Below are positions 16,526 to 20,918 of a stretch of 64,000 nt of DNA, in pieces. The notes beneath the pieces were generated by a model. That model did no database searches, had not been told where the DNA came from, and saw nothing but the letters and a program-made list of their open reading frames with translations. Location of the stretch: positions 62,001-126,000 of the forward strand of contig NZ_WUEH01000001.1 in NCBI RefSeq assembly GCF_010468615.1, read 5' to 3'. Within the stretch, counting starts at the first letter, position 1. Each line of letters begins with the position of its first letter. This DNA comes from Pseudodesulfovibrio sp. JC047 (GTDB taxonomy: Bacteria; Desulfobacterota; Desulfovibrionia; Desulfovibrionales; Desulfovibrionaceae). The translations under genes were made by a program, and so were the position numbers.

Positions 16526-18586
16526 CTAATCAGTCTGTTCCGCCTTTTTGTGTGCGGCAATGACCTTTTCCGTTTCCTGCGGAGGGCATTCCTCATAGGA
16601 TGCGAATTCCATAAAGAACGTTCCCTGACCACCTGTCATGGAATTCAGATCCGGCGCATATTTCAACATCTCGGCCATAGGGACATGGGCCTTGACCTCG
16701 GTCAATCCTGCTTGCGAATCTGACCCCAGTACCTTGCCTCGTCTGGAGGACAGGTCACCAATCACATCGCCCATAAAGGAATCAGGCACTGCAACCGTGA
16801 CGAGCATGACGGGTTCGAGCAAGACCATCTTGGCCTTTTCACAGGCTTTCTTGAAAGCCAGAGACCCTGCCACTTTAAAGGCCATTTCTGAGGAGTCAAC
16901 GTTATGATAACTCCCGTCATACAATGCCACCTGGAAATCAATGATCGGATATCCGGCCAACACACCGCGAGCAGCCACTTCCTGAACGCCTTTGTCCACC
17001 GCGGGGATAAACTGACGCGGAATCGAACCACCAACGATCTTATCTTCAAACTCATAGCCTGCGCCTGAGGGACGGGGGGCGACGTTGATCCAGCAGTCAC
17101 CGAACTGACCACGACCACCGGACTGTTTTTTATGACGCCCCTGCACTTCCTTGGCCCCGGTCTTGAAGGTCTCGCGATACGGAACCTTGGGTGTCTTCAG
17201 AACGATGTCGGCCTTGTACCGACGCCGGGCCTTTTCAACAGAGATTTCAATATGATTCTGGCCCATACCTGACAACAGGATGTCGCTGGATTCTTCATCA
17301 CGGGCCAAGGTCAAAGTGATGTCTTCCACGAGCAACTTGGAAACCGCCGAATACACCTTGTCTTCATCACCTTTTTCAGCCGGAGCCAAGGCAAAGGTAA
17401 TCAACTGGGGTGCAATCTCGGGCTTGACCAGCTTGAACTGATCTTTTTCGACCAGCGTATCGCCGGTATGCGTATTCTTGAGCTTGGCCAGCACCGCAAT
17501 GGAACCGGGTCCCATGGCGTTTTTCACTTGGGTCTGTTCCTTGCCATTCATGACCAGCAGTTGGCCCACCCGCTCTTTTTCATCGTTGGAAGCATTGAGC
17601 AGATGCGAATCAGATTTGAGTTCACCGGACAAAACCCGAACCACGGTCAACTGACCGGCAAACGGATCGGCCTGTGTCTTGAAAACAAAACAGGCCAACG
17701 GCTCATCAGGAGAGCTGGCCCGTTCACCGTCTTCACCTTCCCACACAGGGTGAGCCAGCGGCCCGGGCAACAGATTCTGTACGGTATCAAGGATCATCTG
17801 GCCGCCCTGACAATTCAATGCGGATGCAATGACCACAGGGACAAGCTCACCGGAACTGACACCGGCTTGAAGACCTTTGGTGATGTCCTCGGGAGACAGT
17901 TCGCCATCTTCAAAATATTTTTCCATGAGATCTTCATCACTTTCAGCGATGTTCTCGATCATGGTTTCACGCAGCATTTCAACTTCATCAGCGATGTCAC
18001 CAGGGATATCCCCTTCCGTCACAGCACCGTCTTCGCCAAACATCTGGGCCTTGCCGGACATCATGTCCACCACGCCCTTGAATTCTTCCTTGGAACCAAT
18101 AGGATAATACAAAAGCACCGGGCGAGCACCCAAAGCCTCAGAAATACCATTGAATGCCATATCGAATTCAGCCCGGTCCCGATCCATCTTGTTAATGACA
18201 ATCATGGACGGAAGGCCGTTTTCCTGGACTTTTGCCCATATTTTACGAGTCAGGGGCTTGACGCCATCCACGGCGTCGATAACCATGACCACGCCGTCGG
18301 CTGCGGTCAGGCTGTAGGACAAATCACCTGCAAAATTGGAGTCACCTGGAGTGTCGATCAGGAAATGGTCATTCTTTTTCCATTTGTAACTGGCAAATCC
18401 TGGCTGAATCGAACCGCGCCGCTTGATTTCCTCAGGCTCATAATCGAGAACGGTGTTTCCGTCTTCGACCTTCCCGAGGCGATTTACAACTCCGGCATTG
18501 AAAAGCAACATCTCGGCGACGGACGTTTTACCGCTACCGCCGTGACCGACGAGTGCATAAGTTCTTTGAGTTTTCAAATCAGGCAT
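16526..18586 (-). CDS. Elongation factor G-like GTPase (EF-G2 type)
   Basis: A 686-residue five-domain translational GTPase related to EF-G. The G1 loop is GHGGSGKT (14-21), G3 is DTPGD (78-82), and G4 is NKMD near residue 133. Domain IV keeps ALYDGSYHNVDSSEMAFK. The G3 motif normally reads DTPGH, whose histidine activates water for GTP hydrolysis; here it is D82. It also stands outside the str operon (no rpsL, rpsG or tuf nearby), so I think it is the secondary EF-G-like factor rather than the main translocase. Its exact role (recycling, stress, back-translocation) is not known. The ATG at 18586 follows GTGGAGTGAAGT. A hairpin lies in its leader at 18627-18653. Confidence 0.88.
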   Translation of the reverse strand: MPDLKTQRTYALVGHGGSGKTSVAEMLLFNAGVVNRLGKVEDGNTVLDYEPEEIKRRGSIQPGFASYKWKKNDHFLIDTPGDSNFAGDLSYSLTAADGVVMVIDAVDGVKPLTRKIWAKVQENGLPSMIVINKMDRDRAEFDMAFNGISEALGARPVLLYYPIGSKEEFKGVVDMMSGKAQMFGEDGAVTEGDIPGDIADEVEMLRETMIENIAESDEDLMEKYFEDGELSPEDITKGLQAGVSSGELVPVVIASALNCQGGQMILDTVQNLLPGPLAHPVWEGEDGERASSPDEPLACFVFKTQADPFAGQLTVVRVLSGELKSDSHLLNASNDEKERVGQLLVMNGKEQTQVKNAMGPGSIAVLAKLKNTHTGDTLVEKDQFKLVKPEIAPQLITFALAPAEKGDEDKVYSAVSKLLVEDITLTLARDEESSDILLSGMGQNHIEISVEKARRRYKADIVLKTPKVPYRETFKTGAKEVQGRHKKQSGGRGQFGDCWINVAPRPSGAGYEFEDKIVGGSIPRQFIPAVDKGVQEVAARGVLAGYPIIDFQVALYDGSYHNVDSSEMAFKVAGSLAFKKACEKAKMVLLEPVMLVTVAVPDSFMGDVIGDLSSRRGKVLGSDSQAGLTEVKAHVPMAEMLKYAPDLNSMTGGQGTFFMEFASYEECPPQETEKVIAAHKKAEQTD

Positions 18587-18653: not shown

Positions 18654-18804
18654 CACAGCACTTGGTTTTTGACAGGTTTAGTCCTATAGGAAGACCAACG
18701 CGAAATTGTCAAGTTACTCACCATGAACACCAACCGCCTATCCATGAAAAATCATTGAGTTTTTTCAATGGATGCATATGATTTCAACACAAATTAAACG
18801 TAAT

Positions 18805-18850: not shown

Positions 18851-19813
18851 TTGCATTTATCCAATGAGATATTCACGGTTTCAGCCGACACCTTAGACGC
18901 TTCGGGGGCGCATCTGTTCTGGACAGCCAAACCCGAGACATCACTCCTCAATTCCATTGAAGAATTCGGCCAGGCCACACCGATTCTTGTCTGCCAATCC
19001 CCTGAGGGTCTGGTACTCATCGCGGGACACGCTCGCCTGACAGCCCTGAGTACACACGGTCTACCAGTACTTGCCCGAATGGTCGAAGATGTCACCGAGA
19101 TGGACAAAGGATTGCTGTACCTGACAGACAACCTGCATCGTTCACTCGATGACGGAATGCGGCTCAAGGCCCTGGAGTATTTTGCTCCGCTCATGGATGA
19201 CAAGACCCTCAAAAACGATATTCTCCCCAGATTGGGCATCAAGCCGAAATCCAAGGATGCGCGTCTGTTGCTGGAATGGCTGACCATGGATGCGGACTGG
19301 CAGGCCCTCCTGAAAACAGGCCACATACCTTTGGCTCTGGCCACGGTCTTGTCACGCATGACCACCGAAGACAGGGAGGCGATCCATTCTCTATTTACCG
19401 GATTTTCATGGTCTCGCTCCAATGCAGTCAACATGGTAAATTGGCTTTTTGAAACCGCAAAAATGCGTGACAAAGCGGTTCAGGACGTCATGCTTGATGC
19501 GGGAGTGACCACCATCCTCTCGCAAGGACTTTCCCCCAAAGATGCCATCGCCCGCCTCACCACGGCGGCACGACTCGCCCGCTACCCGGAACTGACCAAA
19601 CTTCAGGATCGGTTCACGGCCGCAGCCGGAGAAATCACCTCCGGCACCCGTTGGCGCATGAATCAACCCAACAATTTCGAAACAGGCGGTGCCGAACTCA
19701 CCGTCCAGATCAAAGACGCCGAACAACTCGAACGAGCGGTTGTGGAAATGGCGGATATTGCCAAGGCCTCTGCCTGGGAAAAAGTGTGGAAGCTGGGAAG
19801 TGGCAATGACTAA
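18851..19813 (+). CDS. ParB/sulfiredoxin-like domain protein
   Basis: A 320-residue cytosolic protein. The first 100 residues look like a ParB/Srx N-terminal domain: SLLNSIEEFGQATPILV followed by GLVLIAGHARLTAL, where AGHAR stands at the place of the ParB CTP-binding GERR motif. Residues 100-250 are helical, as in ParB-like DNA-binding proteins, but I see no clear helix-turn-helix. It is not a chromosomal ParB: there is no parA beside it. The TTG start at 18851 follows AGGAG with 6-base spacing. The gene overlaps the SPL-like radical SAM gene by 8 bases, so they are co-translated and probably act together. Confidence 0.7.
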   Translation: MHLSNEIFTVSADTLDASGAHLFWTAKPETSLLNSIEEFGQATPILVCQSPEGLVLIAGHARLTALSTHGLPVLARMVEDVTEMDKGLLYLTDNLHRSLDDGMRLKALEYFAPLMDDKTLKNDILPRLGIKPKSKDARLLLEWLTMDADWQALLKTGHIPLALATVLSRMTTEDREAIHSLFTGFSWSRSNAVNMVNWLFETAKMRDKAVQDVMLDAGVTTILSQGLSPKDAIARLTTAARLARYPELTKLQDRFTAAAGEITSGTRWRMNQPNNFETGGAELTVQIKDAEQLERAVVEMADIAKASAWEKVWKLGSGND

Positions 19814-20918
19814 ACTCCTCCCCTCCCATCTGCGCAAAATCGGCCATGTCTTTGTGGATGAATCCATGCAGGATTCCCCCATCACCCAACGAGTTCAAGC
19901 CACATTGGCTGGCACCGATCAGGAAAACATTCCATGGACGGTAGTCCCACCCGACCAGGATCGCGTGGAATTTGACGAAGGCGACACCCAAGCGTTGTAT
20001 CTTAAGGAATATAAAGGGAAATTTCTTCGATTCTGTCCCGGAACCAGAGCGTACCACTGCTGTGGTTACCGCATCATTCACATCGGCGAAAACTGCCCCA
20101 TGGCCTGCTCCTATTGCATTCTGCAAGCGTATTTTCAGGACCGGGTGCTCAAGATATGGGCCAATCAGGACGCGCTCTTCACGGAATTGGGCAATGCCTT
20201 TGGTGCCGACCCAAACACCCGCTATCGAGTTGGAACTGGCGAATTCACGGACTCGCTGGCACTGGAACACCTGACCGGCTATTCCCATAATCTCATTGGA
20301 TTCCTTGAAAAATATGACAACGTGGTGCTGGAACTGAAATCCAAGGTCGTGGACCTCACTTGGATGAATGCCACCTCTCGGACAGACCGGGTGCTTCCAG
20401 CCTGGTCGCTCAATGCACCGTTCATCAACGAACACGAGGAATTCGACGTTTCCAGCTTGAAAGAACGGCTCGAAGCGGCCCGAACCTGTGCCGAAGCAGG
20501 GTTCAAGGTCTGCCTGCATTTTGACCCGATCATCCACTACCCCGGCTGGCGAGAAGGCTATGCGGAAATCATCGACATGATCTTCGATTATGTTCGTCCT
20601 GAAAACATCGCCTACATGTCACTTGGATCGTTCCGCTGTATGCCGCAACTCAATCCGATTATCGCGGACCATTTTCCCGAGACCACCTATATATATAATG
20701 AATTCATCCCGGGACTTGATGGAAAGGCGCGCCTGCTCCGCCCACTGCGCGTGGAACAATTTACATTCATGGTTGACCGCCTGCGCAAGCACGGCATGGA
20801 CAAACAACTGTATTTCTGCATGGAATCCACAGAAGTCTGGAAGCAGGTCTTTGGCTACGCTCCCAAGGATTTCGGTGGACTGGGCAATCGACTGATGGCC
20901 CGGGCATTTGGTGAATAG
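19806..20918 (+). CDS. Spore photoproduct lyase-like radical SAM protein
   Basis: A 370-residue radical SAM protein of the SPL family. The [4Fe-4S] motif CPMACSYC gives C97, C101 and C104. Downstream are VGTGEFTDSLALEHLTG, then LELKSKVVDL, and LHFDPIIHYPGWREGY near residue 245, all usual in SPL-like proteins. True spore photoproduct lyase repairs a thymine dimer in spore DNA and uses a conserved cysteine (C141 in B. subtilis) as hydrogen donor in a CTSD segment; by my alignment the matching site here reads EFTD, without the cysteine. The host shows no sign of sporulation, so the substrate is unknown. The ATG at 19806 lies within the ParB-like gene's end. Confidence 0.8.
   Translation: MTKLLPSHLRKIGHVFVDESMQDSPITQRVQATLAGTDQENIPWTVVPPDQDRVEFDEGDTQALYLKEYKGKFLRFCPGTRAYHCCGYRIIHIGENCPMACSYCILQAYFQDRVLKIWANQDALFTELGNAFGADPNTRYRVGTGEFTDSLALEHLTGYSHNLIGFLEKYDNVVLELKSKVVDLTWMNATSRTDRVLPAWSLNAPFINEHEEFDVSSLKERLEAARTCAEAGFKVCLHFDPIIHYPGWREGYAEIIDMIFDYVRPENIAYMSLGSFRCMPQLNPIIADHFPETTYIYNEFIPGLDGKARLLRPLRVEQFTFMVDRLRKHGMDKQLYFCMESTEVWKQVFGYAPKDFGGLGNRLMARAFGE

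Follow-up and report, generated by a model that had tools for sequence, protein, structure and literature searches.

The DNA-repair enzyme spore photoproduct lyase (SPL) is among the closest known relatives of the radical SAM enzyme discussed here. Its hydrogen donor, Cys140/141, is essential in B. subtilis, and a tyrosine (98/99) belongs to its radical relay (PMC3742179). SOS regulation of SplB/COG1533 proteins has been found in several bacteria (PMC8565304). Radical SAM proteins of the SPL type are also present in bacteria that are not known to sporulate, and their role there is largely unexplained. The ParB fold has been surveyed, with mutants in which the arginine of the GxxR motif is changed to alanine serving as the non-binding controls in NTP assays. 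The same survey concluded that the choice of nucleotide cannot be read reliably from sequence (PMC12704722).

The window, by which we mean the whole stretch of 64,000 nucleotides that was analysed, contains an SPL-fold radical SAM gene whose start overlaps the end of a gene for a ParB-like protein. The two genes are kept or lost jointly across the order and are present through much of the phylum, and they therefore probably encode an undescribed two-part enzyme. That they form one inherited two-gene unit is well supported. No description of such a pair was found in the literature covered, a scope that leaves most subscription journals outside.

Organization of the gene pair

The sequence-only reading had described a ParB-like gene and a radical SAM gene that are fused by overlap. 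Both open frames are present where it had placed them (Table 1) and they do overlap, but the frames are separate and there is no fusion. Because the 8-nt overlap is kept in 25 of 27 loci from related genera, it suggests that translation of the two genes is coupled. The ParB-like gene starts with TTG or GTG in the related-genus loci that were read, and a start of this kind may hold the level of the ParB-like protein low relative to that of the enzyme. Rough dN/dS values against relatives are 0.09-0.22 for the ParB-like gene and 0.02-0.05 for the radical SAM gene, which points to purifying selection on both genes that is much stronger on the radical SAM gene, and both look protein-coding. A 798-aa open frame in another genome (G259) was considered as a ParB-radical SAM fusion and was rejected, as it is merely a scaffold gap filled with N.

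Table 1. Positions of the gene pair, its conserved features and the adjoining gene in the window
Feature	Position	Strand	Details and basis
Divergent EF-G paralog	16526..18586	-	NF009381, 1.7e-271
ParB-like partner gene	18851..19813	+	320 aa, TTG start, stop TAA at 19811-19813
ParB N-terminal (ParB/Srx) NTP-binding fold, residues about 1-98	18851..19144	+	Structure matches
GHAR, the GxxR P-motif, residues 59-62 (AGHAR, 58-62)	19025..19036	+	Conservation in relatives
ParB/KorB-type helix-turn-helix, residues about 99-200 (boundaries approximate)	19145..19450	+	Alignment to KorB-DNA and Noc-DNA
C-terminal partner domain, residues about 164-320	19340..19810	+	Stand-alone gene of about 170 aa in two clades
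SPL-fold radical SAM gene	19806..20918	+	370 aa, ATG start at 19806; PF20903, 1.2e-18
8-nt overlap of the two genes, ATGACTAA	19806..19813	+	Same overlap in 25/27 related-genus loci
C77 and C86, invariant, outside the cluster motif (C85 nearly invariant)	20034..20063	+	154/154, 154/154 (C85, 145/154)
CxxxCxxC cluster motif (CPMACSYC, residues 97-104), C97/C101/C104	20094..20117	+	154/154
Glu146, at the position of the SPL hydrogen donor Cys140/141	20241..20243	+	Profile alignment to 4rh0
C338, invariant C-terminal cysteine	20817..20819	+	152/152 rows covering the position

Distribution of the pair

The class was scanned in 297 genomes, all of one order (Desulfovibrionales). The ParB-like gene was found in 106 of these and the radical SAM gene in 110. 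Both genes are present in 106 genomes and neither in 187, and the ParB-like gene is never found alone. The radical SAM gene occurs without it in four genomes, each of them less than 96% complete, and one of these matches is a fragment. The genes are adjacent and on the same strand in 95 of the 106 genomes. Among the 11 non-adjacent pairs, two are perhaps split by contig ends and six belong to a single genus in which the genes lie apart. On an EF-G tree of 68 sampled genomes the presence of the pair changes about seven times, at least three of them on strongly supported branches, and no remnants of the pair were seen beside EF-G in the eight pair-less genomes checked.

A profile scan of 297 genomes drawn from the phylum found relatives of the ParB-like protein in 128, a few of these matches spanning the C-terminal half only, and 124 of the 128 genomes also carry the radical SAM gene (E 1e-30 or better). 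At least 77 of these pairs are adjacent, their matched stretches being separated by 3 to 348 nt, and others are unlinked. The counts in the class and in the phylum are not independent tests since the genomes that carry the pair are related to one another. In both scans the pair behaves as one inherited unit. Genes that mostly lie apart would have spoken against the sequence-only reading. In the order they do not; further out in the phylum a sizeable minority of the pairs is unlinked, but the genes still co-occur.

No homologue was confirmed on viral contigs. Phages and plasmids gave distant SPL-like proteins only, and the partner gene is absent at the three loci examined. In Fusobacterium vincentii a 624-aa frame (L281:1846-3717) consists of a nucleoside-phosphorylase-like part and an SPL-like radical SAM part, and its neighbour is a gene for a short-chain dehydrogenase. 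A similar SPL-like gene and a dehydrogenase are also present in a gut phage record (L280).

The radical SAM enzyme

The radical SAM protein is above the cut-off of the Pfam SPL family PF20903 (67.6 bits, cut-off 27) and below those of the NCBIfam equivalog TIGR04070 (67 bits, cut-off 400) and of TIGR03886 (30 bits, cut-off 437.55). Its predicted structure has a mean pLDDT of 81.4 and is weak around the cluster loop. The model matches SPL structures with TM-scores of 0.71-0.78, far above any other fold.

The residues were counted across a set of 154 non-redundant relatives. At the place of the SPL hydrogen donor, 143 of them have Glu, 10 have Gln and one has Asp, and none has Cys. Residue 105, which motif spacing places at the relay Tyr98/99 of SPL, is Ile in 130, Val in 15, Phe in 8 and Tyr in one. 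Tyr96 of SPL is retained as Tyr103 in all 154 relatives. Two SPL-family proteins that come from other phyla serve as a control, and they have both the donor Cys and the relay Tyr. The protein is therefore SPL-like in fold but lacks key catalytic residues of SPL. The earlier suggestion of a kinship with a DNA-repair lyase is thus right for the fold, but repair by the SPL mechanism is unlikely because the enzyme is without the SPL hydrogen donor. The cysteines C77, C86 and C338, all outside the cluster motif, may bind a second iron-sulfur cluster or act as thiols.

The ParB-like partner

The ParB-like protein falls below the cut-off of Pfam ParB_N (E=0.0011, 19.4 bits, cut-off 26.3). The ParB/Srx domain claimed by the sequence-only reading is nevertheless found in its AlphaFold (AF2) model (mean pLDDT 91.7), which has both the N-domain and the helix-turn-helix fold. 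Over its first 200 residues the model matches KorB, Noc and CDP-bound ParB. Foldseek and VIA matches to the N-domain are M. xanthus ParB-CDP, PadC, Noc and sulfiredoxin. The alignment to KorB-DNA (8qa9) covers 194 residues with a Z of 10.2, and Noc-DNA (7ol9) is also matched. The sole ParB_N match over the cut-off in this genome is on contig C15, away from the pair, and the canonical ParB of the genome is encoded elsewhere.

The AGHAR stretch, which had been placed at the CTP-motif position, does contain the GxxR P-motif, and the motif is conserved in the relatives (G59 in 138/142, R62 in 137/142). The equivalents of Q52 and E93 of M. xanthus ParB are Thr43 and Asp93, and only 20 of the 142 relatives have the Q and 26 the E. 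A CTP-hydrolysing clamp is not predicted because these catalytic residues are not conserved. NTP binding is plausible since GxxR is kept, and its arginine is the residue that was mutated to obtain non-binding controls (PMC12704722).

Many enzyme genes that seem to have no partner are directly preceded by a gene of about 170 aa with its own ATG. This gene corresponds to the C-terminal half of the ParB-like protein alone, and a ParB domain was not detected at these loci. In a quick tree of the enzyme, the loci with the C-terminal-only partner fall into two separate clades (support 100 and 95). Some of the protein's most conserved residues lie in its C-terminal half (P246 in 141/142, E277 in 139/142). 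The domain has no significant match in Pfam, and the whole-protein fold search barely probed it. Because the partner in two clades consists of this domain alone, the simplest reading appears to be that the C-terminal domain is the core partner of the enzyme and the ParB half is a module that was added or lost. The ParB half, which is missing from the partner in those clades, is not the essential part of the system.

Neighbouring genes and the upstream region

The neighbours of the pair in the window are EF-G and open reading frames read as a plsC-type acyltransferase, RNase J and rpsB, and there is no parA among them. The EF-G paralog adjoins the ParB-like gene in most loci of the order. It was considered as a third component and was rejected, as it is present in 294 of the 297 class genomes whether or not they have the pair, and gene order is the likelier explanation. 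In two other families (L210 and L236) the radical SAM gene, which lies apart from its ParB-like partner, adjoins a convergent EF-G gene. In 13 loci of about 10 other families of the phylum (L221, L224, L229, L230, L232, L236, L240, L242, L244, L246, L248, L250 and L253), the gene immediately upstream of that for the ParB-like protein is purC (SAICAR synthase), and the neighbours of unlinked pairs are purC or other genes. These lineage-specific neighbours fit inherited gene order. The presence of EF-G and purC may also link the pair to translation or purines.

The region that separates the EF-G gene from the ParB-like gene contains a block of about 60 nt (18660-18725) that is nearly invariant in the genus and, taken on the minus strand, reads as an EF-G promoter (CTTGACA ... 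TATAGG). It was rejected as a conserved operator for this reason and because it was not seen outside the genus. Nor was any operator that extends beyond the genus seen upstream of the ParB-like gene.

Proposed function and alternatives

In the best-supported reading, which we propose tentatively, the pair forms a radical SAM enzyme of two subunits, one of them an adaptor of the ParB type that would bind an NTP and probably target DNA. The SPL-fold subunit would cleave S-adenosylmethionine at a [4Fe-4S] cluster and carry out radical chemistry, probably on a nucleic-acid base or sugar. The ParB-like subunit would dock on the enzyme through its C-terminal domain. Its N-domain would bind an NTP, its helix-turn-helix would put the complex on DNA, and nucleotide binding would gate or target the radical chemistry. 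What speaks for two subunits is the co-occurrence and adjacency of the genes, both folds, the loss of the SPL residues and the C-terminal domain that stands alone. A nucleic acid target is favoured by the SOS regulation of SplB proteins in several bacteria (PMC8565304), and the SPL fold, a DNA-acting fold, can be counted for it. DNA itself has a roughly even chance of being the target. The DNA-binding half of the partner is absent in two clades, where DNA targeting would not be needed, and the neighbours of the unlinked pairs, purC among them, give no hint of DNA. The DNA-directed repair or modification system of the sequence-only reading is partly supported. The ParB and SPL folds and their belonging to one unit stand, but repair by the SPL mechanism is unlikely, and we infer the DNA substrate.

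It is possible, though doubtful, that the enzyme acts instead on a protein, on RNA (for example in translation) or on a small nucleotide, and that the ParB half is an NTP switch that does not bind DNA. The EF-G genes that adjoin the pair across the order and the unlinked radical SAM gene in two other families would fit this, as would purC in its 13 loci, and ParB/Srx folds are also found in small-molecule and protein enzymes (SerK, sulfiredoxin). However, genomes have EF-G whether or not they carry the pair, the neighbours vary by lineage as inherited gene order would have them do, and the helix-turn-helix fold is retained in most partners (modelled for the window protein, the others being full-length relatives).

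It is unlikely that the pair is a DNA-repair lyase of vegetative cells, reversing a thymine photoproduct or another lesion, with Glu146 or one of the extra cysteines as the substitute donor and the ParB-like protein loading it on DNA. The SPL fold, the retained Tyr103 and the SOS regulation of SplB proteins agree with such a role, but the donor that B. subtilis cannot do without is never Cys here, and the relay tyrosine is replaced in 153 of 154 relatives while two SPL-family proteins elsewhere keep both residues. A search for SOS control found no LexA over the family cut-off in the genome.

In a bolder form of the DNA-targeting proposal, which we consider rather improbable, a nucleotide-gated DNA clamp of the ParB type would move the radical SAM enzyme along DNA to install or remove a modification or lesion of a new kind, and would do so in much of the Desulfobacterota.

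There is little chance that the ParB-like protein is merely the transcription factor of the operon and no subunit of the enzyme. It has a ParB-type helix-turn-helix and its gene adjoins a divergent promoter region, but it co-occurs with the enzyme gene even when the two are unlinked, its conserved core is the C-terminal domain, which persists without the helix-turn-helix, and upstream there is no sign of an operator shared beyond the genus. That inherited gene order alone holds the pair together, with no functional link, is most improbable: most of the genomes compared do share ancestry, but joint presence and absence recur on the EF-G tree, the genes co-occur when unlinked, their overlap is conserved, and independent loss of either gene in many genomes was not seen in the class.

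Comparison with known systems

The two-subunit enzyme proposed here resembles SPL (SplB; PF20903, TIGR04070; Geobacillus 4fhc and 4rh0) in its fold, in the CxxxCxxC motif and in the Tyr at the Y96 position. It differs in that the Cys140 donor has become Glu, Gln or Asp and the relay Tyr98 has become Ile, Val or Phe. It also has the invariant C77, C86 and C338, a dedicated partner subunit and no sporulation context. The proteins of TIGR03886, such as those of Granulicella and Aureimonas, have the radical SAM core and the same fold family, but the window enzyme is far below the cut-off of this family. The two proteins read with that annotation keep the donor Cys and relay Tyr, and no gene for a ParB-like or C-terminal partner was found beside the Aureimonas protein.

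The partner shares the N-domain, the helix-turn-helix fold and the GxxR motif with the CTPase-fold proteins ParB, KorB, Noc and PadC. Unlike them, it is below the ParB_N cut-off, does not conserve the catalytic Gln and Glu, and has another C-terminal domain. It also differs from the ParB of ParABS systems in that its gene is not beside parA. The orphan fusions of the ParB-CTPase fold (PMC12704722) are similar in having the ParB fold with a further domain and in keeping the NTP-binding GxxR, but neither a radical SAM nor a lyase partner is named in the main text of that survey. The domain figure given there is based on PF02195, a family whose cut-off the window protein does not reach.

The radical SAM protein is a variant of the SPL type without the SPL catalytic residues and is inherited with a dedicated ParB-fold partner, and the two are probably a two-part enzyme. 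For the SPL-type proteins found outside sporulation it offers a concrete two-protein system. The product of the enzyme would define a new radical SAM reaction, and the partner would reveal if the NTP-binding fold of ParB is able to guide an enzyme to DNA.
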